A stretch of 43,362 bases of DNA from a virus, in IMG/VR virus record IMGVR_UViG_3300024517_000029, positions 1 to 43,362 of that record; one strand, 5' to 3'. The position numbers were made by a program, and so were the translations under genes. Shown here one piece after another: positions 14,863 to 42,996 of this stretch (position 1 is the stretch's first letter; each line of letters starts with the position of its first letter). The notes under the pieces are model-generated. The model was not told the origin of the DNA. It worked only from the letters and a program-made list of their open reading frames with translations, and made no database searches.

Positions 14863-14900
14863 TAACTTTTATGCTAAATAGTGAAATAATACTAAATATA

Positions 14901-14933
14901 TTGTTGTTTATTGGAAATGTATTTGTATATTTG
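14901..14933 (+). promoter_or_regulatory. Early rightward promoter
   Basis: TTGTTG (14901-14906) and a perfect TATATTTG (14926-14933) with a spacer of about 19-22 match the Bacteroidota housekeeping promoter. It lies about 38 bases before the first early gene and just downstream of the repeat cluster. Confidence 0.65.
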
Positions 14934-17816: not shown

Positions 17817-17864
17817 TGAAAGTAAACAATACAAAAGATAAGGTAATAATAGCAGTATATTAGA
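17817..17864 (+). CDS. Possible 15-codon leader peptide or gene remnant
   Basis: ATG to TAG, 15 codons (MKVNNTKDKVIIAVY), preceded by AACAATTAGAAACT, the initiation context of real genes here. It ends 10 bases before the -7 box of the next operon. It may be a gene remnant cut by insertion of the downstream module, or a leader peptide. Too short to be sure that it is translated. Confidence 0.3.
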
Positions 17865-17887: not shown

Positions 17888-17980
17888 CAAAGTGACGTCG
17901 GAAATCACAAATAATTTATTTAAAACCCTTGTTATCGAATGCCTCCCGACGTGGCTACTTTGACAGGGGTTTATTTATTT
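17888..17980 (+). ncRNA. Structured 5-prime leader RNA, copy A (kissing hairpins)
   Basis: Hairpin 1 has stem GTGA/TCAC (17892-17895, 17905-17908) and loop CGTCGGAAA. Hairpin 2 has an outer 9-bp stem, AACCCTTGT (17924-17932) with ACAGGGGTT (17963-17971), and an inner GCC/GGC stem with loop TCCCGACGT. The two loops pair: CGTCGG (17896-17901) with CCGACG (17946-17951). Copy B at 40391 keeps both hairpins and the pairing with different bases. The T-rich tail after hairpin 2 suggests it could act as a terminator or attenuator ahead of the ibrA-like gene. No match to a riboswitch class I can recall. Confidence 0.7.
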
Positions 17981-17996
17981 AACACATTTATTATTA

Positions 17997-19291
17997 TGAA
18001 AATTTACGATTCAGACAAGAACGTATACGATGCATCGAATGAGCGTATAGAGTTCATTTTCAATAACTTTGAGAGGATTTATATTTCATTCTCTGGAGGT
18101 AAGGATTCTGGAATTATGCTAAACCTTGTTTTAGATTATATGCGTAAAAACAACATAACCGAAAAGATTGGTTTAATGGTTATGGACAATGAAGCAAATT
18201 ACACCTTATCATTGGAGTTTATGCATCGAATAATCCAAGACAACTTAGACTTGTTAGATGTTTACTGGTGTTGCCTTCCAATTACCTTACCATGTACTGT
18301 AAGTAGTTACGAAACAACTTACATAACTTGGGGAGAGAAAGATAGAGGCAGATGGATAATGCCTATGCCTAAAGAGGATTATATAGTTAATATAGAAAAT
18401 TGCCCATTTGATTTTTATGAAGAAAACATGCACGATAAGGATTTTTACGATAATTTTTCTGTGTGGTATGGTCAAGGTAAACGATGTGCAAATTTAATAG
18501 GTATTAGAACCGATGAAAGTTTAAACAGGTATAGGGCTATAATGAACAAAAAGAAGATTATGGTTAACAACCTATGTTGGACTAGAAAAAACAAAGGAGA
18601 TTGCTTTAATTGTTATCCAATATACGATTGGAAAACAGAAGATGTATGGACTGGTAACGCTAAATTTGAATGGGATTACAATGAGTTGTATGATTTATTT
18701 TGGAAAGCTGGTTTAAGTGTTGCTCAAATGCGTGTAGCATCACCATTTATGAGTGAATCAAAGTCTAGTTTAAACCTATACAGGATAATAGACCCACACA
18801 TATGGAGGACTTTGTGCGCTAGGGTTTCTGGGGCTAACTTCTTAGCTACATACGGTAAGAAAATATCATACAATGGCTTCAAACTACCAAAAGGTCATTC
18901 TTGGAAAAGCTTCACTAAATTTCTTTTAGACACATTGCCTAATGAATCTTCTGAAAATTTTAGAAAGCGTTTTGCTCAGTCGATAAAATACTGGTGGAGA
19001 GTAGGGCGCGGTTTGTCAGACGAGGTAATTGAGGATATGAATAAGAACAATATTGATTTTATACTAGGAGAAAAGACTAGACACGGAAGGAAGGATAAGA
19101 CGTGTGTACGAATGTTACCCCCAGATCATTTAGATATGTTAAGAACTCATAATTCAGAGGTTACAAGCTGGAAGAGGTTTGCAATAACGATACTTAAAAA
19201 CGATCACACTTGCAAGTACTTAGGATTAGCACCAACACTAGAACAAGCAAAAAGACAAAAAGAGATACAAAACAAATATAAAAACCTTTAA
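17997..19291 (+). CDS. ibrA: IbrA-like PAPS reductase/ATP pyrophosphatase family protein
   Basis: A 431-residue protein of the phosphoadenosine phosphosulphate reductase-like family with a DUF3440-like C-terminus, as in IbrA. The ATP-pyrophosphatase P-loop SGGKDS is at residues 33-38, followed by family features GIRTDES (about 169-175), NCYPIYDWKTEDVW (about 205-218) and the C-terminal ILKNDHTCKYLGL. I used the ATG beginning MKIYDSDKNVYDAS, because the upstream in-frame ATG lies in the leader RNA hairpin. Such proteins adenylate or reduce sulphur compounds in other systems; the true IbrA reaction is not known. IbrB-like and two associated genes lie 1.8 kb downstream, separated by an inserted ectD-methyltransferase-ectC set. 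Confidence 0.85.
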
Positions 19292-25651: not shown

Positions 25652-25660
25652 CTAAATTTA

Positions 25661-25693
25661 TTTGCAATTAACTGAAATATATTGTTATCTTTG
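25661..25693 (+). promoter_or_regulatory. Strong promoter P1
   Basis: TTTG (25661-25664), 21-base spacer, perfect TATCTTTG (25686-25693). The spacer contains TTAA and AATATATT, which are shared at the same places with promoters at 28687 and 32901. It drives the recombination operon. Confidence 0.8.
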
Positions 25694-28653: not shown

Positions 28654-28686
28654 ATAAACCACAAAAAGAGAGATTAACTAAATATA

Positions 28687-28719
28687 TTTGCTATTAACTA
28701 GAATATATTACTATCTTTG
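28687..28719 (+). promoter_or_regulatory. Strong promoter P2
   Basis: TTTG (28687-28690), 21-base spacer, perfect TATCTTTG (28712-28719). It shares TTAA and AATATATT in the spacer with P1 and P3, and AACAATTAAAA in the early transcribed region with P1. Confidence 0.8.
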
Positions 28720-28741: not shown

Positions 28742-28903
28742 ATGAAAATTATAGAATATTTACGTGAGTTGATATGCTTTTTATTATGGCTAATAGTTTG
28801 TTATGTGGTTCTTTTAATTTGTTTTTTTCTTTGGGACTTGGGGACTATGTATAAATGGATAGAGGTTTTGGAAGAACAAGTACTAAAAACAACTAAGCCA
28901 TGA
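28742..28903 (+). CDS. Small single-span membrane protein
   Basis: A 53-residue protein. Residues about 9-32 form one very hydrophobic helix (ELICFLLWLIVCYVVLLICF) with three cysteines, followed by a charged tail. It is the first gene after promoter P2 and overlaps the next start by four bases. Function unknown; a membrane-active early protein is plausible. Confidence 0.7.
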   Translation: MKIIEYLRELICFLLWLIVCYVVLLICFFLWDLGTMYKWIEVLEEQVLKTTKP

Positions 28904-29259
28904 ACACAAAGACAGCAATAGATGCTACCGTAGAAAGTTTATTCTTGAAAAAGAATGAACAACAAATACTAAAAGCTTTTTTCTACAGAGTAGGTTTAAA
29001 CATGACACCTAGAGAAGCAGGAAAAGAGTTAGGGTTGTCAAGAAACCAAGTAAACGCGTTAAACACCGCAAGACTCTACAGACTGACAGACGAAGGAAAC
29101 AACGAGACGTTCAAACAAGGTTTTAAGAGAGCAAATAAGAGTATTACAGACTTCATACAGTACAAACGCTTAAAGAACAAGACAAAAGAGCTTAGAGGGC
29201 TTGCAAATAGAATGTCGTTTCAACACAAGGTATTAATAGCTAAACAACAACACGGCTAA
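28900..29259 (+). CDS. Helix-turn-helix transcription factor-like protein
   Basis: A 119-residue basic helical protein. Residues about 36-62 (MTPREAGKELGLSRNQVNAL) form a helix-turn-helix of the sigma-region-4/LuxR type. It carries basic flanks and no other domain. It is likely a small phage regulator of late or accessory genes. Its stop is followed five bases later by the first attC-like hairpin. Confidence 0.68.
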   Translation: MNTKTAIDATVESLFLKKNEQQILKAFFYRVGLNMTPREAGKELGLSRNQVNALNTARLYRLTDEGNNETFKQGFKRANKSITDFIQYKRLKNKTKELRGLANRMSFQHKVLIAKQQHG

Positions 29260-29263
29260 TTGA

Positions 29264-29316
29264 TTATAACGTACGGGTATAAAAAATCGTTTTAATGTTT
29301 TTTATACAGTGTTAAC
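29264..29316 (+). repeat. attC-like hairpin repeat 1
   Basis: TTATAAC box, then stem GTATAAAAAA (29277-29286) pairing fully with TTTTTTATAC (29298-29307), loop containing CGTTTTAATG (29288-29297), then GTTAAC. First of the cassette-like repeats. Confidence 0.7.
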
Positions 29317-29350
29317 TACTGTGTGAAAGCGTTGGATTAAAAATATAAAA

Positions 29351-29668
29351 ATGGACTATAGATTTAAAAATTACCGAAGAAGACAATTTGAAAACTGGAA
29401 GCAAAAAGTTAGAAAACGATTGCCTGAAATTACAATTGCTTTTTACAATGCGAAACTAAGTGGTATGTATATACCTTATGAAACCGAAAAAATGCTTGGT
29501 GCTGTTATTAGAGATATAAATAACCCTTACTACTCTATACAGGACGATAGAATGAATTTAATAACTGATACTACAAGCGAGATTTCAGCAATTGTAATAC
29601 TTGAAATTATGGTTAATAAACTTTTTGCGTTTGTGAATGTAAAGTGCGTTGGCTCACATTGTAGTTAA
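29351..29668 (+). CDS. Cassette-like gene 1, hypothetical
   Basis: A 105-residue basic protein. The first 40 residues are very rich in Arg, Lys and aromatics (YRFKNYRRRQFENWKQKV); the C-terminal third is hydrophobic (AIVILEIMVNKLFAFVNV) and ends GSHCS. It is flanked on both sides by attC-like hairpins, and its stop codon lies inside the second one, so it is one complete cassette-like unit inserted next to the helix-turn-helix gene. Function unknown. Confidence 0.68.
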   Translation: MDYRFKNYRRRQFENWKQKVRKRLPEITIAFYNAKLSGMYIPYETEKMLGAVIRDINNPYYSIQDDRMNLITDTTSEISAIVILEIMVNKLFAFVNVKCVGSHCS

Positions 29669-29712
29669 CACAAAGCTAGAAGGTCGTTTCAATGCCTTTT
29701 AGCAACTGTTAT
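29664..29712 (+). repeat. attC-like hairpin repeat 2
   Basis: GTTAAC box, stem GCTAGAAGG (29675-29683) with CCTTTTAGC (29695-29703), loop with CGTTTCAATG, then GTTAT. The upstream stop codon lies within the first box, as in integron cassettes. Confidence 0.68.
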
Positions 29713-29761
29713 AAGAAGTTAATACAAATAGAAATAATTAACGATTAATCAAATAAAAAAC

Positions 29762-29983
29762 ATGAAGAAAGAACAAAGAAAACCACTAGACGGAAACTTA
29801 CAAGAAGACTGTAAACGACAAGTAGAGGACATACTTAAAAACAACATAGGAATTAACCCTAACTTAATCTGTCTAGGCTCAGGAATCGCAACAATGACAC
29901 TTAAGAGACTAAGACAGGGTGAAAACATCAGTGCTGAACAGTTAGACAAGCTAGGTAAGTGGATAGTTAAAAACAAACTTTAG
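29762..29983 (+). CDS. Hypothetical helical protein
   Basis: A 73-residue protein with a charged N-terminal half and a compact helical C-terminal half (MTLKRLRQGENISAEQLDKL) that could be helix-turn-helix-like. It lies just after the attC-like hairpin, next to the HD-domain gene. Function unknown. Confidence 0.68.
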   Translation: MKKEQRKPLDGNLQEDCKRQVEDILKNNIGINPNLICLGSGIATMTLKRLRQGENISAEQLDKLGKWIVKNKL

Positions 29984-29987
29984 AATT

Positions 29988-30548
29988 ATGATTCTGGATA
30001 ACAAACAAAAAAATCTATTAGAGTTCGTTAAAGTAAAACATGGCGATCAAGTGCGGAAATACACAGGCGAACCATACTGGACACATGTAGTAGGTGTTGC
30101 TGAAATTGTATGGGCTTATGACAGGAGAGGAATAGAGGTAGCTTTATGTCATGACCTATACGAAGATACAGATTGCACTTTTAGTATGCTTTACAAGTGT
30201 TTAACTGAAACTTGTGGGTACATGTCTTCCGAGTCATACGATATTTGCACACTAGTAACTGATTTAACGGATGTTTTCACGAAAGAAGACTATACATACA
30301 TGAATAGAAAGAAACGCAAACAGAAGGAAGCGGAGAGATTAGGTACTATTGGTTATTTATCCCAAACTGTTAAATATGCTGATTTGATCCACAACACAAA
30401 ATCAATAGTTGAACACGATAAAGGATTCGCAAAAGTGTATTTACACGAAAAACAAGAAATCTTAGTACATATGGACAATGGTAATGCTGACTTATATGCA
30501 AGATGTGTTGATTTATTGAATAATGAGATTGAAAACTTAAACAAATGA
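29988..30548 (+). CDS. HD-domain phosphohydrolase, Mesh1/SpoT hydrolase-like
   Basis: A 186-residue protein with the metal-dependent HD fold of small alarmone hydrolases. The pattern includes H33 in PYWTHVVGVAEI, H55-D56 and E59-D60 in CHDLYEDTDCT, and D132 with N136 in KYADLIHNTKS. Relatives remove the 3-prime pyrophosphate of (p)ppGpp. In infection it could counter the stringent response; that is inference. It overlaps the next membrane gene by four bases. Confidence 0.8.
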   Translation: MILDNKQKNLLEFVKVKHGDQVRKYTGEPYWTHVVGVAEIVWAYDRRGIEVALCHDLYEDTDCTFSMLYKCLTETCGYMSSESYDICTLVTDLTDVFTKEDYTYMNRKKRKQKEAERLGTIGYLSQTVKYADLIHNTKSIVEHDKGFAKVYLHEKQEILVHMDNGNADLYARCVDLLNNEIENLNK

Positions 30549-30718
30549 AAGTACTAAGGTTCTTTATTTACACCCTCACATCAATTCTAACAGGCTATCT
30601 TATACTAATAACACTATGTATTTACTTAGAGAACAATAAAGCAGTAGATAGTGAAAAAGGGTGGCGGTTTATGGAGCCAGAATCAGAAACTAATATTAAA
30701 AATGATTGTTATGAATAA
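30545..30718 (+). CDS. Small single-span membrane protein
   Basis: A 57-residue protein. One transmembrane helix at about residues 5-28 (FFIYTLTSILTGYLILITLC) is followed by a polar acidic tail. It overlaps genes on both sides (4 and 8 bases), so it is part of one coupled operon. Function unknown. Confidence 0.65.
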   Translation: MKVLRFFIYTLTSILTGYLILITLCIYLENNKAVDSEKGWRFMEPESETNIKNDCYE

Positions 30719-30908
30719 AACAAGAGGACACGAAAGAGTAAATGCTGAGTTAGGTTTAACAAAGCGTGAGCATTTCGCATCAATGGCAACGCAAGGTTTA
30801 TTATCTAATTCTACAAGTGGAGGGCTTGGCGACATTAGTACTTTATCAATTTGCGCTGTAGACGCATCCGAAGCATTAATTAAAGCTTTAAACAAAAATA
30901 GTGATTGA
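30711..30908 (+). CDS. Small phage protein with LTKREHFA motif
   Basis: A 65-residue protein. I took the ATG at MNKTRGHERVNAEL; the longer frame would begin with GTG inside the previous gene. The segment GLTKREHFASMATQGLL is shared by many phage proteins of unknown role that occur near recombination or replication genes. The gene-free RNA region follows directly. Confidence 0.72.
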   Translation: MNKTRGHERVNAELGLTKREHFASMATQGLLSNSTSGGLGDISTLSICAVDASEALIKALNKNSD

Positions 30909-30923
30909 TTAAATAAATTTCAT

Positions 30924-30931
30924 TACCTTCG
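30924..30931 (+). promoter_or_regulatory. Candidate promoter -7 box for the RNA region
   Basis: TACCTTCG, one or two changes from TAnnTTTG, about 7 bases before the first structured element. A TTG upstream is at a non-ideal distance. Confidence 0.4.
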
Positions 30932-30937
30932 TTATGT

Positions 30938-31044
30938 AGTTCTACTGAAAGGTAGCTTCGAAACTACCAGACAGTATTAGGATATTAGGCAAAAGCCAAT
31001 TCAATATAGGAAGGTTATCAGTTCGAAGCGGTAACCTTTTTTTT
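30938..31044 (+). ncRNA. Small RNA with complementary hairpin loops and terminator
   Basis: Hairpin 1: GGTAG/CTACC (about 30951-30967), with loop bases GCTTCGAA (30955-30962). A middle hairpin has GGC/GCC around AAAA inside an ATATT/AATAT stem. The final hairpin has a 9-bp stem, AAGGTTATC with GGTAACCTT, and a run of eight T. Its loop holds TTCGAAGC (31022-31029), the exact reverse complement of the loop bases in hairpin 1, so the loops can kiss over 8 bp. TTCGAA is also self-complementary, so two molecules could dimerise. No ORF is present and no known family matches. Confidence 0.65.
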
Positions 31045-31047
31045 ATG

Positions 31048-31163
31048 GACAATGGTTAGGTAGGTTTTATAAGGTTTGGCATTACCAGTTAAAATGTGAC
31101 AAAACCTACTTAACTCTTTCCATTATCCAGAACTCACAAGACATATAGTGAGTTTTATTGTTT
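31048..31163 (+). ncRNA. Long hairpin plus intrinsic terminator
   Basis: GGACAATGG (from 31047) pairs with CCATTATCC (to about 31129), enclosing a second stem GTTAGGTAGGTTTT / AAAACCTACTTAAC with one mismatch. After it comes a terminator, AACTCAC/GTGAGTT (31131-31154) with a T-rich tail. This could be a second small RNA, or readthrough product of the one before it. Confidence 0.5.
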
Positions 31164-31497
31164 CCCATTTCCACTCAACTGTAAAAAAAGGCAAAAGCTA
31201 CATTAAGACGGTTGTCAAAAGTCTAGCTCTGTGTACCCTCACAACTAGCGACTGCACACTCGAAAGGGGTGACAACTGACCGAAACGGCTAAGTCTAAGG
31301 ACTGAATACATAAGAATAGCTCGCAGGCGGATATAGTACTTAAGGTGTGGTAATGGTCCTGTTAAGGAATGTAAATCGTCACTAGGTATTAGTGCAGGGT
31401 AAAAGGGAAGTTGTATAGAATAGCTAACAATAACACCATAAAGACAATTTAAAAGTAATTAGAGAAGGCAAAGAGGTTTAAACTAAAAGTGAAGATT
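31164..31497 (+). other. Gene-free stretch with several predicted hairpins
   Basis: About 330 bases without a credible ORF. Helices visible by eye: CAACTGT/ACGGTTG around 31176-31214; CACTC/GGGTG around 31256-31270; AGTC-TAAG-GACT near 31293; TCCT/AGGA near 31357; CACTA/TAGTG near 31380. Base composition is less A/T-rich than the neighbours. Together with the two elements before it, the whole gene-free block is nearly 590 bases, the size of ornate large RNAs such as ROOL, but I could not match conserved features of ROOL, GOLLD, group I introns or RNase P. Confidence 0.4.
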
Positions 31498-31806
31498 ATG
31501 GAAGAACAAAAAGTAAGGAAATATAAAACGAGCAGAGATATAGCTATGTTTTACTTACGAGGACATTCAGGAGCGTTAACAACAAACCAAGAAATAAAAG
31601 ATTTAGCCAAGGATATAGATTTATTCATTCAGGAAAAATTAAAAGAAGATGTTATACCATTAATGGACGAATCAAACTTTATAGCTAAACACTTTAAAGA
31701 CAATCCTATTTGCACAGTTTACCGCGTACATGAACTGAACAAAAATATTGAAGATAAGTACGGAATAAAGGTTAACTATACACCAACTGGATTGGATTAT
31801 GAATAA
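31498..31806 (+). CDS. Hypothetical protein after RNA region
   Basis: A 102-residue charged protein with an even mix of helix and loop (SRDIAMFYLRGHSGALTTNQ). The ATG is chosen over an earlier GTG three codons before it. No domain recognised. It is the first gene after the structured RNA block. Confidence 0.72.
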   Translation: MEEQKVRKYKTSRDIAMFYLRGHSGALTTNQEIKDLAKDIDLFIQEKLKEDVIPLMDESNFIAKHFKDNPICTVYRVHELNKNIEDKYGIKVNYTPTGLDYE

Positions 31807-31821
31807 ACAACAATTAGAATT

Positions 31822-32148
31822 ATGCTAGACGGAGAATGTAAGATAGAGTTCGAGAAGTGGTACTATCATAACGAAGCAGAATACGAGTTAGGAATTAGTG
31901 GCGGTCACTCAGGAAAATTACACCCATCAAGAGAGTGGGGAGTAATAGTTGACTTCTTTGATAGTGTTGGAATTTGGTTAATCGAAGATGTTGAACATAA
32001 ATCAACAGGCCATGAATATTCGGTTAAATATAAGCGAGAGTATAATATGGAATTTGGATTAACCTACTCTAATAAGTCACGTAATGAAGCACGAAGTGCA
32101 GCTATAACAAAGGCTAACGAGTTATTCAACTTAAGAAGTAAAGCGTAA
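31822..32148 (+). CDS. Hypothetical protein
   Basis: A 108-residue protein with a Trp/Tyr/His-rich strand region (FEKWYYHNEAEYELGISGGH) and a helical C-terminal part. It is preceded by AACAATTAGAATTATG, the initiation context used repeatedly here. Function unknown. Confidence 0.74.
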   Translation: MLDGECKIEFEKWYYHNEAEYELGISGGHSGKLHPSREWGVIVDFFDSVGIWLIEDVEHKSTGHEYSVKYKREYNMEFGLTYSNKSRNEARSAAITKANELFNLRSKA

Positions 32149-32163
32149 ACAAAACACTGATAA

Positions 32164-32790
32164 ATGCCTAGATGTAAAAGTTGTAAAGCAAAGTTTGAGC
32201 CTGTTAACTTTTTGCAGAAATTTTGCAAAGGAAACAACGATTGTTTAGCGGCCGAAGCACTTTACAATCTAAACAAGATCAAAGAAAAACAGCTAAAAGA
32301 TTGGAACAAGGAGAAGCCACAACGTAAGATAAGTGCTTACTCCAGTAAATACAAAAAGGAACTAGGTGACAACATCAACAAACTATCAAGAATGATAGAT
32401 ACTAGTTTCGGTTACAAAACATGTATTGATTGTCATAGAGGTTATGGAGGCCAAACAGACGCAAGCCATTTTCACAACGTAGGGTTATTTCCTAGCTTAA
32501 GATGGAATTTAGATATTTTACACTCATCCAACAGTTCTTGCAATCAGTACCATGGAGGACGTAAAGAGGGTTACTACGAAGGTTTAATCGAAAGGTATGA
32601 CAAAGAGTACGCAGACTACATAAAGTACGAGATACCGAAGCTATACCCAAGACTAGGGCTAAACTCACAGGAGATATTCGACGCTTTAACAACAGTAAGA
32701 AAATTAATAAGGGATTACGACACTTTTGAGTTTAAAGATGCTCGACACGCAAGGAAACAACTCAACTTACTAATCGGATTGTACAAATGA
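32164..32790 (+). CDS. ninG: NinG/Rap-like recombination protein
   Basis: A 208-residue protein with the NinG pattern: N-terminal zinc-binding cysteines C4-x2-C7 and C21/C27; a charged helical linker; then CIDCHRGYGG (C87, C90) and DASHFHNVG (H102, H104), and SCNQYHGGRKEGYYEGL. NinG/Rap of lambda acts on branched DNA and is HNH-like in its metal site. This suggests a role in phage recombination, although it lies outside the main recombination operon. Confidence 0.82.
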   Translation: MPRCKSCKAKFEPVNFLQKFCKGNNDCLAAEALYNLNKIKEKQLKDWNKEKPQRKISAYSSKYKKELGDNINKLSRMIDTSFGYKTCIDCHRGYGGQTDASHFHNVGLFPSLRWNLDILHSSNSSCNQYHGGRKEGYYEGLIERYDKEYADYIKYEIPKLYPRLGLNSQEIFDALTTVRKLIRDYDTFEFKDARHARKQLNLLIGLYK

Positions 32791-32873: not shown

Positions 32874-32900
32874 ATAATAATTGAAATAAATACAAATATA

Positions 32901-32933
32901 TTTGGAGTTAATAGAAATATATTGTTATCTTTG
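32901..32933 (+). promoter_or_regulatory. Strong promoter P3
   Basis: TTTG (32901-32904), 21-base spacer, perfect TATCTTTG (32926-32933). The spacer keeps the TTAA and AATATATT blocks of P1 and P2. It faces the cassette-like region. Confidence 0.8.
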
Positions 32934-33519: not shown

Positions 33520-33575
33520 TCAACCCCGTTTTAAAACACGGTGAATTGATTATAACGCTAAGTATAACAGTAGAA
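33520..33575 (+). repeat. attC-like element, partial or rearranged
   Basis: CCCGTTTTAAAACACGG forms a short stem around A/T bases and carries CGTTTTAAAA, and is followed by TTGATTATAACG, which matches the front of repeat 1 exactly. It looks like a fused or eroded copy. Confidence 0.45.
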
Positions 33576-35722: not shown

Positions 35723-35785
35723 TTTATAACGAATTGTGTATAATTTCGTTTTAATGAATTTTACACTTTGTTATTGTTAGTTTGC
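35723..35785 (+). repeat. attC-like hairpin repeat
   Basis: TTATAACG box, stem GTGTA-T-AATT with AATT-T-TACAC around a loop carrying CGTTTTAATG (35747-35756), then TTTGTTATTGTTAG. Nine pairs with one mismatch. Confidence 0.68.
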
Positions 35786-36437: not shown

Positions 36438-36560
36438 ACAAGGGTTAATTATTTTTAGCCTTTGTTATGCTTTCGTTTTAATGAAGCCTAATGACTACTG
36501 TATGTGGCGTAGCTTTTTAGCTATGACATATAAAGTTTGTTAGCATTAGTGCGGATTATT
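36438..36560 (+). repeat. Composite attC-like element
   Basis: Right arm of the 23-base inverted repeat (36438-36460), then a GCTTT/GAAGC hairpin with CGTTTTAATG (36474-36483), then TATGT ... ACATA with inner TAGCT/AGCTA, and ending GTTAGCATTAGTGCGG. Two subtypes of the repeat appear joined here. Confidence 0.62.
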
Positions 36561-36580
36561 AACTAATAAAATTAAATAGA

Positions 36581-36643
36581 ATGGATAATTACGAAAAAGA
36601 ATTAGAACAAATCAAAATCAAATCAAATGAAAGTACTAATTAA
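36581..36643 (+). CDS. Very short ORF
   Basis: A 20-residue ORF (MDNYEKELEQIKIKSNESTN) after the last attC-like repeat, overlapping the next gene's start. It may be a coupled leader ORF. Weak support. Confidence 0.3.
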   Translation: MDNYEKELEQIKIKSNESTN

Positions 36644-36770
36644 AAAAGCAACCTTAAAAAGTTACTGGTATAACGATTATATTGGTGAAATCATAGAGGT
36701 AGATGTAGATTCAAAGAATAGAGCTTTAAACTTTGTGTCGGCACAAATAGACTTTTTAAAGGCTCATTAA
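36627..36770 (+). CDS. Short hypothetical protein
   Basis: A 47-residue basic protein (MKVLIKKATLKSYWYNDYIG, then EVDVDSKNRALNFVSAQI). It resembles the small cassette genes before it and closes the array, followed by a 70-base gap and a strong terminator. Function unknown. Confidence 0.58.
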   Translation: MKVLIKKATLKSYWYNDYIGEIIEVDVDSKNRALNFVSAQIDFLKAH

Positions 36771-36840
36771 ATAATTAATCGTACATTGCAGTATCAAAGT
36801 AGTTTTCTTTCCTTTAAACTCTTTCATACTTAATTGTTTT

Positions 36841-36872
36841 AAAGCCCTTAGATTCATAACTAAGGGCTTTTT
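36841..36872 (+). terminator. Strong intrinsic terminator
   Basis: AAAGCCCTTAG (36841-36851) pairs perfectly with CTAAGGGCTTT (36860-36870), 11 bp with an 8-base loop and T's after it. It closes the accessory array. On the minus strand the A run before it would also serve. Confidence 0.85.
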
Positions 36873-36873
36873 G

Positions 36874-36881
36874 TATATTTG
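36874..36881 (+). promoter_or_regulatory. Promoter -7 box before the AraC-like gene
   Basis: Perfect TATATTTG, four bases before the start codon, so the mRNA would be nearly leaderless, as for the leftward gene at 14704. The -33 region lies in the terminator stem and shows no TTG. Confidence 0.5.
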
Positions 36882-36885
36882 ACAT

Positions 36886-37209
36886 ATGGATTTAACAACA
36901 GAAGTACTTAACGAATATCTAGATAAGAACAATCTAAGCAAGGATTTCACAATACAAAAGATGGGCAAGGACTTAAACAAGTCAAGAACACTATTCTTTT
37001 TAGAGGTGAAAAACCTAACAGGACACAACCCTAGCCAAATGGTAATGCACTACAGATTAGAAAAGGCTAAACCAATGCTTCACACAGCCAAACACATTTC
37101 AGAGGTAGCTTATAAAGTTGGATTCGACAGTACAGCTTATTTCAGTAAGTGTTTCAAACAGACTTTTAAGATGTCACCAAGTCAGTACATCAACTCAGAA
37201 AGAACATAA
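36886..37209 (+). CDS. AraC-type DNA-binding domain protein
   Basis: A 107-residue protein that is only the AraC/XylS DNA-binding domain. Two helix-turn-helix units are seen, the second being the typical HISEVAYKVGFDSTAYFSKCFKQTF-MSPSQY pattern (about residues 70-100). The usual N-terminal sensing domain (100-200 residues) is absent. It may activate phage or host promoters. Stand-alone domains of this kind are unusual in phages. Confidence 0.85.
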   Translation: MDLTTEVLNEYLDKNNLSKDFTIQKMGKDLNKSRTLFFLEVKNLTGHNPSQMVMHYRLEKAKPMLHTAKHISEVAYKVGFDSTAYFSKCFKQTFKMSPSQYINSERT

Positions 37210-37224
37210 GTTATAATATTTACG

Positions 37225-37232
37225 TATCTTTA
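37225..37232 (+). promoter_or_regulatory. Promoter -7 box candidate
   Basis: TATCTTTA, 16 bases before the next start codon, with no clear -33 element. Moderate to weak. Confidence 0.4.
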
Positions 37233-37248
37233 ACATAAATAAACAGTT

Positions 37249-37413
37249 ATGGAACAAGACGATAAGCTCGACAAAAAAGAGTACTACTTGAAAGAGATAA
37301 TGATCAGTAACAAAAGAATAGCTAACAATATGTCTTTCTTTGCGTGGATCGTAATTATAAGCTTTTCAGTAACAGTTCTAGGTGGGTTATACTGGATGAG
37401 CGCAAATCTATAA
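37249..37413 (+). CDS. Small C-terminal membrane-anchor protein
   Basis: A 54-residue protein: charged N-terminal 25 residues (DDKLDKKEYYLKEIMISN) and one transmembrane helix near residues 29-50 (FFAWIVIISFSVTVLGGLYW). Tail-anchored layout. Function unknown; located before another membrane protein gene. Confidence 0.65.
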   Translation: MEQDDKLDKKEYYLKEIMISNKRIANNMSFFAWIVIISFSVTVLGGLYWMSANL

Positions 37414-37418
37414 AAGAC

Positions 37419-37847
37419 ATGAAAAAAGCAGTAATAGCATTTGCAACAGTAGCACAGACAATACTAAGATACTTTACTATTGTAATCGACAGGCTAGTAA
37501 TGGCTCCATTTATAGGAGTGCCACTTCCAGAGATTAACCACTCCAAACAAGTACCAGTAGTTGACGAATTCACAACAAACGAAGAGATAGAAGAAATCGT
37601 TGATTTAGAAGACAGCTTAACAATAAAATACTTCAAAGAGTACTTACCTAAAGCCAGAAGAAGAACATTAAGAACAATTGCAATATCGACAACTATATAC
37701 ATATTCACCCTAGTATCATGGACAACAGTATTTCTAACACTAGGAACAGGAGCAGTAGCATTTTCAGTAACACTACTAATCCAGTATTTAATCAAGAGAG
37801 CTAAAAACAAATCTAATGAACGAAACAACGACAATAACCTTTCCTGA
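37419..37847 (+). CDS. Membrane protein with N-terminal and paired C-terminal helices
   Basis: A 142-residue protein. I took the ATG at MKKAVIAFATVAQ, five bases after the previous stop. The N-terminal hydrophobic stretch (3-40) is followed by an acidic soluble region (about 45-85) and two C-terminal transmembrane helices (about 88-110 and 111-125). No known family. Adjacent small membrane genes suggest a role at the cell envelope. Confidence 0.72.
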   Translation: MKKAVIAFATVAQTILRYFTIVIDRLVMAPFIGVPLPEINHSKQVPVVDEFTTNEEIEEIVDLEDSLTIKYFKEYLPKARRRTLRTIAISTTIYIFTLVSWTTVFLTLGTGAVAFSVTLLIQYLIKRAKNKSNERNNDNNLS

Positions 37848-37962
37848 TTTATTAGCTATACTATGCAACGGAGTACATGAAGCACAAGACTTAGCAATTG
37901 AATTCGGATGGACAAACGACAATGATATGTATTTATTAATGCCTATATACAGACTCAATTAA
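37816..37962 (+). CDS. Short hypothetical protein
   Basis: A 48-residue acidic protein (MNETTTITFPDLLAILCNGV, then FGWTNDNDMYLLMPIY). It overlaps the upstream membrane gene by 32 bases and ends seven bases before the next. Codon usage and length look real; function unknown. Confidence 0.6.
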   Translation: MNETTTITFPDLLAILCNGVHEAQDLAIEFGWTNDNDMYLLMPIYRLN

Positions 37963-37968
37963 ACAATT

Positions 37969-38208
37969 ATGGAGCAATCGACACCAAAAGAAGCTCTTCT
38001 AAGCGACGAAATAACAGAAGCTATGGATAGGGTACAGAAAACATCAAAGATATCTCTAAGAGCATTAGAGAACCATAAAGAGGCTAATGAACACTTAGAA
38101 GAGTTGTTGGATAGTAAGGCGTGGAAAGAATTACGAGAAAACAATGTCATAGAGGCGGTTAGTAGGCTAAACAAGGAGGAGGCGTTACCGATCAATAAGA
38201 TTAGATAG
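37969..38208 (+). CDS. Hypothetical helical protein
   Basis: A 79-residue acidic, all-helical protein (EALLSDEITEAMDRVQKTSK, ENHKEANEHLEELLDS). Possibly a coiled coil. It precedes the terminase genes by two genes. Function unknown. Confidence 0.74.
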   Translation: MEQSTPKEALLSDEITEAMDRVQKTSKISLRALENHKEANEHLEELLDSKAWKELRENNVIEAVSRLNKEEALPINKIR

Positions 38209-38247
38209 AGGTACAACCTTTTACCAATTAACGAATCCTAGCAATAA

Positions 38248-38475
38248 ATGAAATTACACATATTCCATAGCTATAAAGACGTAGGACAAAAGTTCATATC
38301 ATCTTACTTCCCTTACTTCTTTGATCCACAAGGAAATGATGTAGAATATGGTGTAACACAGAACATGGAATGCAAAAAGTGCGGAAAACACAAACACTAT
38401 ACTTTGAAAATAAGAGGTAAGAAAGAGCACTTAACACCTGATGTAGTAGCAAACATATATAACATTGAATTATGA
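38248..38475 (+). CDS. Small protein with CxxC-HKH segment
   Basis: A 75-residue protein with CKKCGKHKHYTLKIRG near residue 42, which could hold one metal with two Cys and two His. The rest is strand-like. It lies just before the small terminase gene and might bind nucleic acid. Not recognised. Confidence 0.7.
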   Translation: MKLHIFHSYKDVGQKFISSYFPYFFDPQGNDVEYGVTQNMECKKCGKHKHYTLKIRGKKEHLTPDVVANIYNIEL

Positions 38476-38509
38476 GTAAAGAAACATTAATTAACGAAAC
38501 TAAATAACT

Positions 38510-38944
38510 ATGGGAGAAGCAAAAGAAGGAGACAAAAGACTAGGTAATAAGTTTGCTTTAGGGTTAACCACAAATGGACAGCCTCCTGTATACAAAACAC
38601 CTGAAGAAATGACTATCAAAATAGAGGAATATTTCGCCATTCTATTAGATGACGAAGAGAAAGAATACGAAACAAGACCAACTATGACTGGAATGGCTCT
38701 GTACTTAGGTTTCAGCTCCCGTCAAAGCATGTATGATTACGCAAAAAAGAAAGATTTCTCTTACATTGTATCGCGCAGTCAGCAAGTTATAGCTATGTCT
38801 TACGAGGAAATGCTATTAACAAAAGTAAGTGCAGGGGCTATATTTGCATTGAAAAATATGGGGTGGGATGATAAGACAGTTATCGAGCAAACAAACATTG
38901 AACCACCTAAGATTGAGTTTACAGATGAAGATGAAGAAAATTAA
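38510..38944 (+). CDS. terS: Terminase small subunit
   Basis: A 144-residue protein with the pattern of small terminase subunits of this phage group. The start region contains YKTPEEMTIKIEEYFAILLD, then TMTGMALYLGFSSRQSMYDY, which is a helix-turn-helix-like DNA-recognition segment, and KVSAGAIFALKNMGWDDKT toward the end. It would recognise phage DNA and load the large subunit. The large terminase lies 110 bases downstream. Confidence 0.85.
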   Translation: MGEAKEGDKRLGNKFALGLTTNGQPPVYKTPEEMTIKIEEYFAILLDDEEKEYETRPTMTGMALYLGFSSRQSMYDYAKKKDFSYIVSRSQQVIAMSYEEMLLTKVSAGAIFALKNMGWDDKTVIEQTNIEPPKIEFTDEDEEN

Positions 38945-39054
38945 CACTAGGATTACAATAGTACTAAATAGGTGGATAAAGCAATGTGCATCTATCATAG
39001 ACAGTAAACAATGAAAACTATAAAGGCGGAATTTACGATACTAGGAATACAACA

Positions 39055-40353
39055 ATGAAGATAAGCCGTAAATACAAACCACTATTTGAAGTTGTCCAAG
39101 GCAAGCACCCTCAAGTCGACACAATAGTACTTACTGGCGGTAGGGATTCAGGTAAATCATTTGTTGCTTCATTAGCTGTTTGTGATGCAGCGGCCAATTA
39201 TAATCACAGAGCATTATACACGCGTTACACATTAACTTCTGCAAAGGATTCTATTATACCTGATTTCAACGAGAAGATAACAATGCTAGGTTATGAGGAT
39301 TACTTTCACATAACAAATGACAGGGTTCAATGTGTTCACAATAGAGGCAAGGTAGTATTCAAAGGATTCAAAACAAGTCAAGGAAACCAAACGGCAAATC
39401 TTAAGTCGTTAAAGGATTTCTCAATGTTAGTATGTGAGGAAATGGAAGAGTACCCATCATACGACGAATGGGATAAGGTGCAATTATCAATACGTGCCAC
39501 AGACGTTCAGTCATTAAACATAGGAATACTCAACCCAACAACAAAGAAGCATTGGGTATACCGTGAGTTCTTCGAGAATAAAGGAGTTAAGGGAGGGTTC
39601 AACGGGATCAAAGGAAACATACTATACATTCACACAACTTATTTAGATTTAGGTAAGGAGTTTATAGCCCCTAAGAACTGGAGGAAATACGAGGCTGCAA
39701 GATTGATATTTGAGAAGTTAGACAAGCTAAGTACTAAGGATAGGTTGTTATCAGACAGGAAAGAACTTAAGATTTACAAATACTATAAATATACTGTTCT
39801 AGGTGGTTGGATGGAAACAGCAGCGGGTGTAATATTTGAAGACTACGACACTTACGATGAGCTTCCAGAAGATGTTGAGAGTAAGTTATGGGGGTTAGAT
39901 TTTGGCTACTCAAAAGACCCTACAGCATTTGGAGAGGTAAACGTAGCGCCAGATGATCTTTATCTTAAGCAACACATATATGAAACAGGGCTATTAAATA
40001 ACGACCTAGCAGACAGGATTAACATGATACTAGGAGATGAGGAAACCTACATCATTGCAGATCATGCTAGACCTGACTTAATAGATGATTTAAATAGAAT
40101 TGTAGGTGAGAAAGGCTACAACTTTGTAGTGCTTCCTTGTGATAAAGGCCCAGGTTCTGTACGTGATGGATTAGAGAAGATGAAAGACAAGAATATCCAC
40201 ATACACAAAGACTCTAAGGACTTTTTAGACGAGGCTAACCACTATCATCAAATAGAAGTTATAAACTCTAAAGGCGAGACTGTGTATCATATTGTAGATA
40301 AGGACAATCACCTTTTCGATCAGGCACGCTATTCGTATTGTAAGTTCTATTAA
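39055..40353 (+). CDS. terL: Terminase large subunit
   Basis: A 432-residue packaging motor and nuclease. The ATPase domain has Walker A GGRDSGKS (28-35) and Walker B SMLVCEEMEE (123-132). The RNase H-like nuclease has acidic residues in LWGLDFGYSKDPT (near 282) and IIADHARPDLIDDL (near 336). It is of the PBSX/Terminase_3 type, which usually cuts by headful. Length is normal. The first 110 bases before it hold only a 15-codon ORF that overlaps the start. Confidence 0.95.
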   Translation: MKISRKYKPLFEVVQGKHPQVDTIVLTGGRDSGKSFVASLAVCDAAANYNHRALYTRYTLTSAKDSIIPDFNEKITMLGYEDYFHITNDRVQCVHNRGKVVFKGFKTSQGNQTANLKSLKDFSMLVCEEMEEYPSYDEWDKVQLSIRATDVQSLNIGILNPTTKKHWVYREFFENKGVKGGFNGIKGNILYIHTTYLDLGKEFIAPKNWRKYEAARLIFEKLDKLSTKDRLLSDRKELKIYKYYKYTVLGGWMETAAGVIFEDYDTYDELPEDVESKLWGLDFGYSKDPTAFGEVNVAPDDLYLKQHIYETGLLNNDLADRINMILGDEETYIIADHARPDLIDDLNRIVGEKGYNFVVLPCDKGPGSVRDGLEKMKDKNIHIHKDSKDFLDEANHYHQIEVINSKGETVYHIVDKDNHLFDQARYSYCKFY

Positions 40354-40356
40354 CAC

Positions 40357-40385
40357 TTGCATATCAAATATATTTTACTAACTTA
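40357..40385 (+). promoter_or_regulatory. Promoter of leader RNA copy B
   Basis: TTGCA (40357-40361) and TAACTTAG (40378-40385) with a spacer of 18-21. The implied start is at the first hairpin of the leader. Confidence 0.55.
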
Positions 40386-40390
40386 GCGTT

Positions 40391-40485
40391 ATCAAAAGTG
40401 AACTAGGGAATCACAAGAAATTTAGAATTGATAGTATCTCGCATTAGAAAGCCTTCCCCTAGTTGGCGTCTAATGTGGGGCTATC
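40391..40485 (+). ncRNA. Structured 5-prime leader RNA, copy B (kissing hairpins)
   Basis: Hairpin 1: GTGA/TCAC (40398-40401, 40411-40414) with loop ACTAGGGAA. Hairpin 2: GATAG/CTATC outer, CATTAGA/TCTAATG middle, GCC/GGC inner stem with loop TTCCCCTAGTT. Loops pair over eight bases: AACTAGGG (40401-40408) and CCCTAGTT (40457-40464). Compared with copy A at 17888, both loop pairings are kept while three base pairs are exchanged, so the fold is conserved by covariation. Shared sequence includes TCAAA-GTGA, ATCACAA and AATTTA. It leads a small-gene operon. Confidence 0.72.
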
Positions 40486-40506
40486 ATATGTAAAAACAAT
40501 TATATT

Positions 40507-40698
40507 ATGGATTATAAGCAAAAGCAAAGACACTTTAAGAATCTATCAAATCGAGTAACTAATATTTGGACAAGAACTGAAATGGTTGGACTTCGACAGG
40601 TGGGAGTTCCTTATGTAAAAGCAGTACACGGGTTGATCGGAAGTGACAAGGTAAGAGCAGAAAAAAGAGCTAACGAACTAAGTAAGCGTAGAGCATAA
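40507..40698 (+). CDS. Hypothetical basic protein after leader RNA
   Basis: A 63-residue very basic protein (KQKQRHFKNLSNRVTNIWTR, then AEKRANELSKRRA). It is the gene controlled by leader copy B, 21 bases after its last stem. It could bind RNA or DNA. A hairpin follows. Confidence 0.68.
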   Translation: MDYKQKQRHFKNLSNRVTNIWTRTEMVGLRQVGVPYVKAVHGLIGSDKVRAEKRANELSKRRA

Positions 40699-40706
40699 AA
40701 CAAACC

Positions 40707-40735
40707 ACCCCCATCGTCTATGTACTTTGGGGGTT
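40707..40735 (+). terminator. G/C hairpin, possible terminator
   Basis: CCCCCA (40708-40713) pairs with TGGGGG (40728-40733); the T tract after it is only two bases, so termination would be weak. Confidence 0.4.
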
Positions 40736-40748
40736 AACAATTAAGATT

Positions 40749-41060
40749 ATGACAAAGGACGAAATACAGAGTAGAGAACAAGACAAGCTGAGTAAGTTTA
40801 AGATCAATTATTATTACTTAGCTACAGGCATGGAGGGTATTGCAGACACATATCCAGAGAAGATAATAGAAGCTAAGACTAAAGACATGGCTGTTTATAT
40901 TTACCTATTAATGTTCATGGCTGAGACTGATACTAAAATAATAGAAGTCGATAAATCTAATGGAAGCAATGGTTATTCTTTTACTTCATTTAGTGAGTTT
41001 GTAGAGGTTAACGAATGTCACAAGTATTGGGGGGTGTCAGTAGATAAATTAACAAATTAA
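40749..41060 (+). CDS. Hypothetical protein
   Basis: A 103-residue protein, helical with a central stretch rich in Met, Ile and aromatic residues (MAVYIYLLMFMAETDTKI). It starts with the AACAATTAAGATT context. Function unknown. Confidence 0.72.
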   Translation: MTKDEIQSREQDKLSKFKINYYYLATGMEGIADTYPEKIIEAKTKDMAVYIYLLMFMAETDTKIIEVDKSNGSNGYSFTSFSEFVEVNECHKYWGVSVDKLTN

Positions 41061-41064
41061 GATT

Positions 41065-41280
41065 ATGAAAGAGATTTTAGCAGTAGTAGCAGTAGGTGTA
41101 TTGATAGCATTATTTGTATCGTTTTCAAGTAGTGACAGTAAACAAATGCAAGAACACTTAGGAGAGACGGTAATAATAGATGGCGACACATCAACAGTAG
41201 TAGATTATAGCACATGGTCAAACACCTACACTTTAGGTAACGGTAAGACTATATCAGAAGAGCTAATTAAAAACAAGTAG
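41065..41280 (+). CDS. Small membrane-anchored protein, paralogue of the gene at 17066
   Basis: A 71-residue protein with a transmembrane helix at about residues 3-20 (EILAVVAVGVLIALFVSF) and a polar domain with HLGETVIIDGDTSTVV and YTLGNGKTIS. The gene at 17066 shares the same order and motifs (HIGE, NGDTLTIV, YTLSNG). Both lie within 1 kb of a copy of the leader RNA. Function unknown. Confidence 0.74.
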   Translation: MKEILAVVAVGVLIALFVSFSSSDSKQMQEHLGETVIIDGDTSTVVDYSTWSNTYTLGNGKTISEELIKNK

Positions 41281-41284
41281 AACT

Positions 41285-41710
41285 ATGAATCATACAAGCT
41301 TCCCTCAAGTCGACATTGAACAGCTAGATTGGATAAGTATAGATGAAAACAATAAAACATACATTACTATGGAACAAGTAACACTAAACAAAGAGACTTA
41401 TGATAGGCTCATGGATATTGAGTTAGCAAATAATCAAGAGATTGATAGGCTCAAAGATATAATAGAAGAGTTTCAAAAAGACGGAGTGTCAGTTGACATA
41501 ACTAGAGATATAACCTATTATAGTAAGACTATCAATTACAAATTATTCACTAAAGATGAGAAACTAAAAGCTATAAAGGAAGAAATGTTATATCAGATAA
41601 CCCTTGCCGATAATAGTAGTGAGAATTATAAGAAACAATTCAAGGAAAGGGTAGACAAGATTTACAATAGAAACATCTTACAGAGAATATTCAATACAAG
41701 AGTTAAATAA
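41285..41710 (+). CDS. Hypothetical coiled-coil protein
   Basis: A 141-residue acidic protein, mostly helical, with possible coiled coil (DIELANNQEIDRLKDIIEEF). No motif recognised. Part of the leader B operon. Confidence 0.72.
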   Translation: MNHTSFPQVDIEQLDWISIDENNKTYITMEQVTLNKETYDRLMDIELANNQEIDRLKDIIEEFQKDGVSVDITRDITYYSKTINYKLFTKDEKLKAIKEEMLYQITLADNSSENYKKQFKERVDKIYNRNILQRIFNTRVK

Positions 41711-41718
41711 AGAGAAGT

Positions 41719-41979
41719 ATGATAACTATAATTATAACAACATCACTTATTGGACTTGCTCTTTATGTAGGTGTTCTATATGGTAAAAGAATTATAATAT
41801 GGGTAAACCAACTATTCAAAAGGAGTCCTAACAGGATAAAAAAGGAAGATATTACAGAACCAAGCCTGTATGATGAACTAAGGAGGTCTGCACAAAATGG
41901 ATCGGTAGCAGCAAGAGAAGCGTTAAAGGATCGTAGTATTTTCGAATCATATTCGTCAGGAAGAAAGTATAAAAAGTAA
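41719..41979 (+). CDS. Single-span membrane protein
   Basis: An 86-residue protein with an N-terminal transmembrane helix (ITIIITTSLIGLALYVGVLY, about 2-20) and a basic, helical cytoplasmic part (RRSAQNGSVAAREALKDRSI). Function unknown. Confidence 0.7.
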   Translation: MITIIITTSLIGLALYVGVLYGKRIIIWVNQLFKRSPNRIKKEDITEPSLYDELRRSAQNGSVAAREALKDRSIFESYSSGRKYKK

Positions 41980-41982
41980 GTC

Positions 41983-42303
41983 ATGAGTAGATATTATTAC
42001 GAATACACGTGCGTTCAAGGTGGAGCGATTCAACGCAAGATAGTAAAAAGACCAACATTAATAAGCAAGGTTAAAAACAACATTTCAAAACGGTTCAATA
42101 TTAAATACTCACTGCCAAAGCTATCTATTGCAAAAAAGAGTGATAAATACTATTGTGAAGATCGTAATAGATGGTGTACTGAATACGTTTTTCTTGGACT
42201 GATCACGCTATACAAATTAACGCTTAACACAAAAAGGGATAAGTGGTCATTTCGAAAGTCAAAAAAGAGAATCACTAAAGCAAGAAAAACAACATTACTT
42301 TAA
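41983..42303 (+). CDS. Hypothetical very basic protein
   Basis: A 106-residue protein with a high Lys/Arg/Tyr content (RKIVKRPTLISKVKNNISKR, KSKKRITKARKTTLL). It starts three bases after the upstream stop. It may bind nucleic acids or membranes. Function unknown. Confidence 0.68.
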   Translation: MSRYYYEYTCVQGGAIQRKIVKRPTLISKVKNNISKRFNIKYSLPKLSIAKKSDKYYCEDRNRWCTEYVFLGLITLYKLTLNTKRDKWSFRKSKKRITKARKTTLL

Positions 42304-42351
42304 ACCGATACTAGACGGTAATATCTAGGTAACTAAATAAACAATATAATT

Positions 42352-42840
42352 ATGGGGTACAGAGAAGATGAGAAAGCAGAAAATCAAAAAATCGCAACAG
42401 CTTTTTTTAAGTGGGGTACAATTTTAGGGCTTTTTATAGCTCTGGTAGTGTGTGGTAGTATGATAGGATGTCCAAGCTACAATGTTTATAGTGAAGGAAT
42501 GTCAGGAAAAGCCGAGTTAGAAAAAGCAAAACATAACAAACTCATAACAATCGAAGATGCCAAAGCGAAAAACGAAGCAGCAATTAGCAAGGCTCAGGCT
42601 AAGATAACAATGGCTAAAGCTCACAATGAATCAATGATTATCAAAGCTGAAGGGCAAAGACAAGCAGACAGCATTAGAGCTATTGGAGTAGCTAGAGCAA
42701 ATGAGATTATTGGAGAATCTTTAAAGGGTAATTCTGATTACTTACATTTCTTGTGGATTGATCAGCTTAAAGACGGAGGTCAAAAGGTTTACATACCTAC
42801 AGAGGGTAATTTACCAATACTAGAAGCAAGAGATAAATAA
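42352..42840 (+). CDS. Membrane-anchored SPFH/prohibitin-like protein
   Basis: A 162-residue protein with a transmembrane helix at about residues 20-42, a charged coiled coil (about 50-115), and a C-terminal part AIGVARANEIIGESL-KGNSDYLHFLWIDQL-KDGG then VYIPTEGNLPILEA, which resembles the end of the SPFH (stomatin/prohibitin/HflC) fold. The usual SPFH core domain of about 170 residues is missing. Similar short proteins occur in other Bacteroidota phages. It may modulate host HflKC-like complexes; that is inference. Confidence 0.7.
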   Translation: MGYREDEKAENQKIATAFFKWGTILGLFIALVVCGSMIGCPSYNVYSEGMSGKAELEKAKHNKLITIEDAKAKNEAAISKAQAKITMAKAHNESMIIKAEGQRQADSIRAIGVARANEIIGESLKGNSDYLHFLWIDQLKDGGQKVYIPTEGNLPILEARDK

Positions 42841-42844
42841 TCCG

Positions 42845-42923
42845 TATATTAGTAGTCACTGATTAGCTTCAGTATAGTTTTACAGGTTAGGTTAAGGGTG
42901 GTATTAATTTACTGCCCTTTTTT
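42845..42923 (+). ncRNA. Candidate tiny terminator-ended RNA
   Basis: TATATTAG box (42845-42852), hairpin ACTGA/TCAGT (42858-42873), then an intrinsic terminator (42894-42923). The layout and the GGGYGGTATT stem strand repeat the element at 611-682. No ORF. It may be a small RNA; no clear -33 element. Confidence 0.38.
42894..42923 (+). terminator. Intrinsic terminator
   Basis: AAGGGTGGTA (42894-42903) pairs with TACTGCCCTT (42910-42919) over ten pairs including wobbles, followed by T's. It ends the operon before the portal gene. Confidence 0.8.
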
Positions 42924-42954
42924 ATGCGCTATGGTGGTTAGATTTTAATCACAA

Positions 42955-42996
42955 TTGACAAGTTTTTCGTCAATACAAATTATTTTCTTAACTTCG
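42955..42996 (+). promoter_or_regulatory. Promoter/operator before the portal gene
   Basis: TAACTTCG (42989-42996) resembles the -7 element. Upstream, TTGAC (42955-42959) and GTCAA (42969-42973) form an inverted repeat over the -33 region that could be an operator. Likely late promoter; the -33 is not classical. Confidence 0.45.

Follow-up and report, generated by a model that had tools for sequence, protein, structure and literature searches.

The stretch of DNA analysed (the window) was a 43,362-base virus record. It encodes a large terminase subunit (Terminase_3), a tape measure protein and a primase/helicase, and belongs to a tailed phage. The primase/helicase shares 57% identity with its counterparts in Flavobacterium phage hattifnatt9-1 and Cellulophaga phage phi19:1, and a tail-region protein was matched by Flavobacterium phages alone (28%). 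Promoter-like sequences of the form TTG-N19-22-TAnnTTTG were found at four intergenic sites (14901/14904, 25662, 28688 and 32902); TTG...TAnnTTTG is the promoter type of Bacteroidota. In Flavobacterium psychrophilum, TAnnTTTG is the sigma-A box, located at −12 to −5 (PMC9723704). Since the replication and tail genes are nearest to those of Flavobacterium and Cellulophaga phages and sites of the TAnnTTTG type are present, a member of the Flavobacteriaceae is most likely the host, as judged from phage-gene similarity and promoter type.

The four sites lie in four copies of a 40-nt promoter-like element (14894-14933, 25654-25693, 28680-28719 and 32894-32933), which carries an extended AT-rich motif (AAATATATTTG...AAATATATTGTTATCTTTG) besides the TTG and TAnnTTTG boxes; a partial copy of 23 nt is found at 17858. 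A different sequence, AACACGGCTAATTGATTATAACG, is present in two intergenic copies (91%; 29249-29271 and 33535-33557) and is perhaps a common leader or operator. The gene at 17939-19291 encodes a phosphoadenosine phosphosulfate reductase-like protein (PHROG 2302, E = 5e-108), of the auxiliary metabolic or DNA-modification type. One contig (L009) is 99.8% identical to the window across 36489-42986 and carries differing or inserted sequence at its positions 1-640 and ~1407-1612, adjoining window positions 35727 and ~36490; on sequence comparison these differences appear as strain-level insertions.

The region studied lies between the genes at 28742-30908 and those at 31489-32790, which encode two small proteins and a NinG-like endonuclease. 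The last upstream gene (30714-30908) encodes a small protein with 47% identity, in the best segment, to a viral locus; the protein is thus real by homology, and the candidate RNA begins 30 nt past a gene. The features were as follows:

30905..30931, + strand: promoter-like TTG-N16-TACCTTCG, with one mismatch to the Bacteroidota TAnnTTTG box
30939..30983, + strand: hairpin 1, with an outer stem, a 3x3 internal loop (AAA/AGA) and an inner stem (GGUAG/CUACC)
30956-30963, + strand: loop of hairpin 1, CUUCGAAA (inner-stem pair probability 0.97)
30956..30962, + strand: loop 1 segment CUUCGAA, complement of loop 3
30988..30997, + strand: small middle hairpin GGC-AAAA-GCC (predicted fold)
31009..31044, + strand: hairpin 3, an intrinsic terminator (stem of ~11 pairs, 31009-31040)
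31020-31029, + strand: loop of hairpin 3, AGUUCGAAGC (10 nt; predicted fold)
31022..31028, + strand: loop 3 segment UUCGAAG, complement of loop 1
31037-31044, + strand: the eight T's of the terminator, read from the sequence
31129..31156, + strand: second terminator-like hairpin, AACTCAC...GTGAGTT followed by TTATTGTTT, in tandem with the first terminator

The 107 nt from 30938 to 31044 were predicted to fold with an energy of −27.4 kcal/mol (z = −3.34), which was equalled by none of 200 shuffled sequences; the layout of hairpins with an eight-T terminator given in the initial annotation is supported, as a predicted stable fold of three hairpins. The first 66 nt, which comprise hairpins 1 and 2 with the terminator removed, still gave z = −2.9, so the structure is more than that of a terminator alone. 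Hairpin 3 is stable and followed directly by a U-run, as in an intrinsic (Rho-independent) terminator. Its loop is weakly paired at the ends (G-C, U-G and U-A) in the fold of minimum energy. With the 5' end of the RNA placed at 30936-30938, hairpins 1 and 3 each form with a probability of ~97%. No open reading frame of at least 15 codons was found within the RNA.

Directly past the terminator and upstream of the hairpin at 31129-31156, a long hairpin of ~15 nearly perfect pairs (GGTTAGGTAGGTTTT / AAAACCTACTTAACT) occupies 31045-31124. Further downstream, the non-coding stretch 31188-31445 reaches a G+C content of 0.52 (genome, 0.34) and offers several possible long-range pairings; it resembles a larger structured RNA, yet its folding energy is no better than that of shuffled sequences (z = −0.4) and it has no match in Rfam.

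The two 8-mers GCTTCGAA (30955-30962) and TTCGAAGC (31022-31029) are exact reverse complements at the coordinates first reported for them, and are the sole two copies in the window. The expected number of copies was 0.63 and two or more were found in 14 of 100 shuffles, so the count by itself is not significant. Both 8-mers had also been placed within the loops of hairpins 1 and 3; here the complementarity stands over 7 nt, and the eighth base, G30955, closes the stem of hairpin 1. Loop 1 is therefore CUUCGAAA, the loop-loop match is CUUCGAA/UUCGAAG, and the kissing helix, for which 8 bp had been considered, was cut to 7 bp. Six of the seven complementary bases form the palindrome UUCGAA, present in both loops; any two loops that have it are automatically complementary, and each is self-complementary as well.

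The complementarity was compared with several backgrounds. For random loops of 8 and 10 nt with this base composition, the chance of at least 7 complementary bases was 6.6e-4, and 0.09 hairpin pairs at most 90 nt apart and reaching 7 nt were expected per strand of the shuffled window. None of 240 shuffled windows, in which terminators are few, had a hairpin-terminator pair with even 5 nt of complementarity. In real phage and viral DNA (825 kb of strand-bases from related phages and other viral loci), none of 74 such pairs reached 7 nt and one reached 6. Allowing for the number of pairs that could be examined, the loop complementarity is above chance and unusual, roughly at the 1-in-100 level or better.

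Opening loops 1 and 3 was calculated to cost 0.8 kcal/mol and a 7-bp duplex to be worth about −6.6 kcal/mol, so that kissing is affordable. By our own estimate, the linker of about 24 nt between the hairpins would be just sufficient for kissing within one molecule. Kissing or dimerisation, which the initial annotation called likely, is on these predictions possible and not likely in a demonstrated sense. In a search for antisense targets, the best duplexes between the loops and gene starts (−15.4 kcal/mol) did not surpass those formed with shuffled starts (median best, −15.3 kcal/mol).

The account that we tentatively place first is that of a short phage non-coding RNA of ~107-109 nt, with its own weak promoter, bounded by a terminator and with an optional loop-loop contact. 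Transcription would start at ~30936-30938 from a weak promoter of the Bacteroidota type. With the box of the site at 30905..30931 taken at −12 to −5, the predicted start (~30936) falls at the 5' boundary of the fold, and a short independent transcript from this position is plausible. The RNA would end at the strong intrinsic terminator at 31044, which may additionally close the upstream early operon. Should the RNA accumulate, the loops of hairpin 1 and of the terminator hairpin might pair as the 7-bp kissing helix, either intramolecularly or between two copies of the RNA, and the helix would compact the RNA and shield its 3' end, or yield a dimer. Several points count against this account. 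The site at 30905..30931 departs from the box at one position, and its spacer of 16 nt is shorter than those of the clearest phage sites (N21) and of the four clear ones (N19-22); sites of equal quality number 66 per 43 kb on the + strand, or ~1.5 per 1000 bp (~1.5% per 10 bp). The searches yielded no homologue that could show covariation or kept loops, six of the seven complementary bases come with the shared palindrome, and the 3' end of an mRNA, taken by itself with its terminator, would appear much alike.

That last possibility is nearly as likely, and the short terminator-bounded RNA is ranked narrowly above it: the region would be no more than the 3' UTR, with its intrinsic terminator, of the operon upstream, which comprises the genes at 28742-30908 and the promoter-like site at 28688. 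The fold would then protect the mRNA 3' end, and the loop complementarity would be coincidental or minor. The clear promoter-like site at 28688 and the terminator at 31044 bracket one gene block, which makes this account nearly as good, and the next block is bracketed likewise, by the site at 32902 and a terminator at 36840. The stop codon of the last gene lies just 30 nt upstream of hairpin 1, and the second terminator at 31129 would make a tandem operon end. In F. psychrophilum, moreover, 3' transcribed regions outnumber independent RNAs about seven-fold (586 versus 85; PMC9723704). A mere terminator, however, has no need of hairpin 1 or of the loop complementarity. Inclusion of 86 nt of extra upstream sequence weakens hairpin 1, whose formation falls from 97% (start at ~30936) to ~52%, and the promoter-like site is located exactly where an independent RNA would require it.

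A regulated leader or attenuator acting on the genes downstream (31489-32790), in which pairing of loop 1 with the terminator loop would alter the frequency of read-through, is unlikely. In its favour, promoter sites of the flavobacterial type (one mismatch at most) are absent from the terminator up to gene 31489, the last being at 30924; but with sites as dense as observed, 440 bp would lack one about half the time, and the hosts possess other sigma factors. The terminator and gene 31489 are separated by ~440 non-coding nt in which more hairpins lie, as would suit a leader, whereas the predicted folds contain no alternative antiterminator pairing and read-through would have to pass two terminators in series.

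It is less probable still that the loops are alike because both show UUCGAA to a protein, or because one hairpin derives from the other by duplication and divergence, the complementarity being then a by-product of the palindrome. GGUAG-CUUCGAAA-CUACC and GGUUAUC-AGUUCGAAGC-GGUAACC do have GGU, UUCGAA and ACC in common and in register, and UUCGAA is self-complementary, but a shared motif leaves unexplained the C-G pair beyond the palindrome. We hold about as improbable the more ambitious proposal of an abundant, self-associating small RNA in a tailed Bacteroidota phage, whose loop 1 and terminator loop would lock together inside one molecule, or join molecules into dimers or chains, giving a particle with a structural or regulatory part in infection. 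The loop of hairpin 3 (G-UUCGAAG-C) is similar to the T-loop of a tRNA, in which position 60 is normally a pyrimidine and here is G; a tRNA-like or tmRNA identity was rejected, as ARAGORN detects no tRNA-like gene.

Relatives of the RNA were searched for at several levels. The whole window had no match in Rfam at gathering scores, in agreement with the initial annotation, which named no matching phage RNA family; with E values up to 5, the segment 30850-31520 gave merely chance microRNA matches outside the RNA. Comparison of the region with 50,697 phage records by blastn returned only short chance matches. In IMG/VR, neither an exact 18-mer of hairpin 1 nor two kissing-loop-plus-terminator patterns found a homologue: one pattern match was a repeat within a gene, and the other 15 lacked the two-hairpin layout on folding. 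A loop-plus-terminator pattern likewise found none in GTDB genomes. Exact-pattern scans overlook diverged homologues, and the absence applies to close homologues alone. A covariance search of five related phages and viral contigs, with a model built from the RNA sequence, recovered nothing but chance matches besides the RNA and its antisense strand.

The neighbouring genes were also used as anchors. An HD hydrolase and the small protein at 30714-30908 matched distant loci, and in three of these (L002, L006 and L007) no comparable RNA follows the gene. The near-identical contigs of this phage found via the terminase (L008-L010) stop short of the RNA region. No relatives were found for gene 31489 or the NinG-like gene, nor did a primase scan of GTDB genomes reveal one. 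As a single sequence for which no relatives were found, the putative short terminator-bounded RNA is to be taken as a lead rather than a finding; the sequence feature itself is real, if only mildly unusual, and makes a decent orphan candidate, with no new system demonstrated. To our knowledge, regulatory RNAs of Bacteroidota-infecting phages have been little studied. In a phage RNA of this sort, pairing of a terminator loop with its own upstream hairpin would constitute a simple, testable loop-loop lock on the 3' end, or a means of RNA dimerisation.

Among known systems, the pRNA of the phi29 type resembles the present RNA (~107 nt) in being phage-encoded, in its size and in a pair of complementary loops that might join molecules hand in hand. 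The RNA described here, however, matches no pRNA family in Rfam; its predicted fold is a row of three hairpins with a terminator, in place of a three-way junction with two single-stranded interlocking loops, and the complementarity is 7 nt and palindromic. The phages differ as well, the pRNA being that of a protein-primed podovirus and the present RNA that of a tailed phage with Terminase_3, a tape measure protein and a primase-helicase. The retroviral dimer initiation hairpin, offered as a comparison of working only, likewise presents, in a hairpin loop, a palindrome of six bases with purines on either side, so that a homotypic kissing dimer is possible in both; here the palindrome is AU-richer, there is no genomic RNA to dimerise, and the two are unrelated. 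A third comparison is with the independent and 3'-end transcripts of F. psychrophilum (PMC9723704), which are short and non-coding, with promoters of the TAnnTTTG type or 3' ends at intrinsic terminators. Those transcripts are chromosomal and have no known sequence match to the present RNA, whereas complementarity between loops is a feature of the phage RNA.
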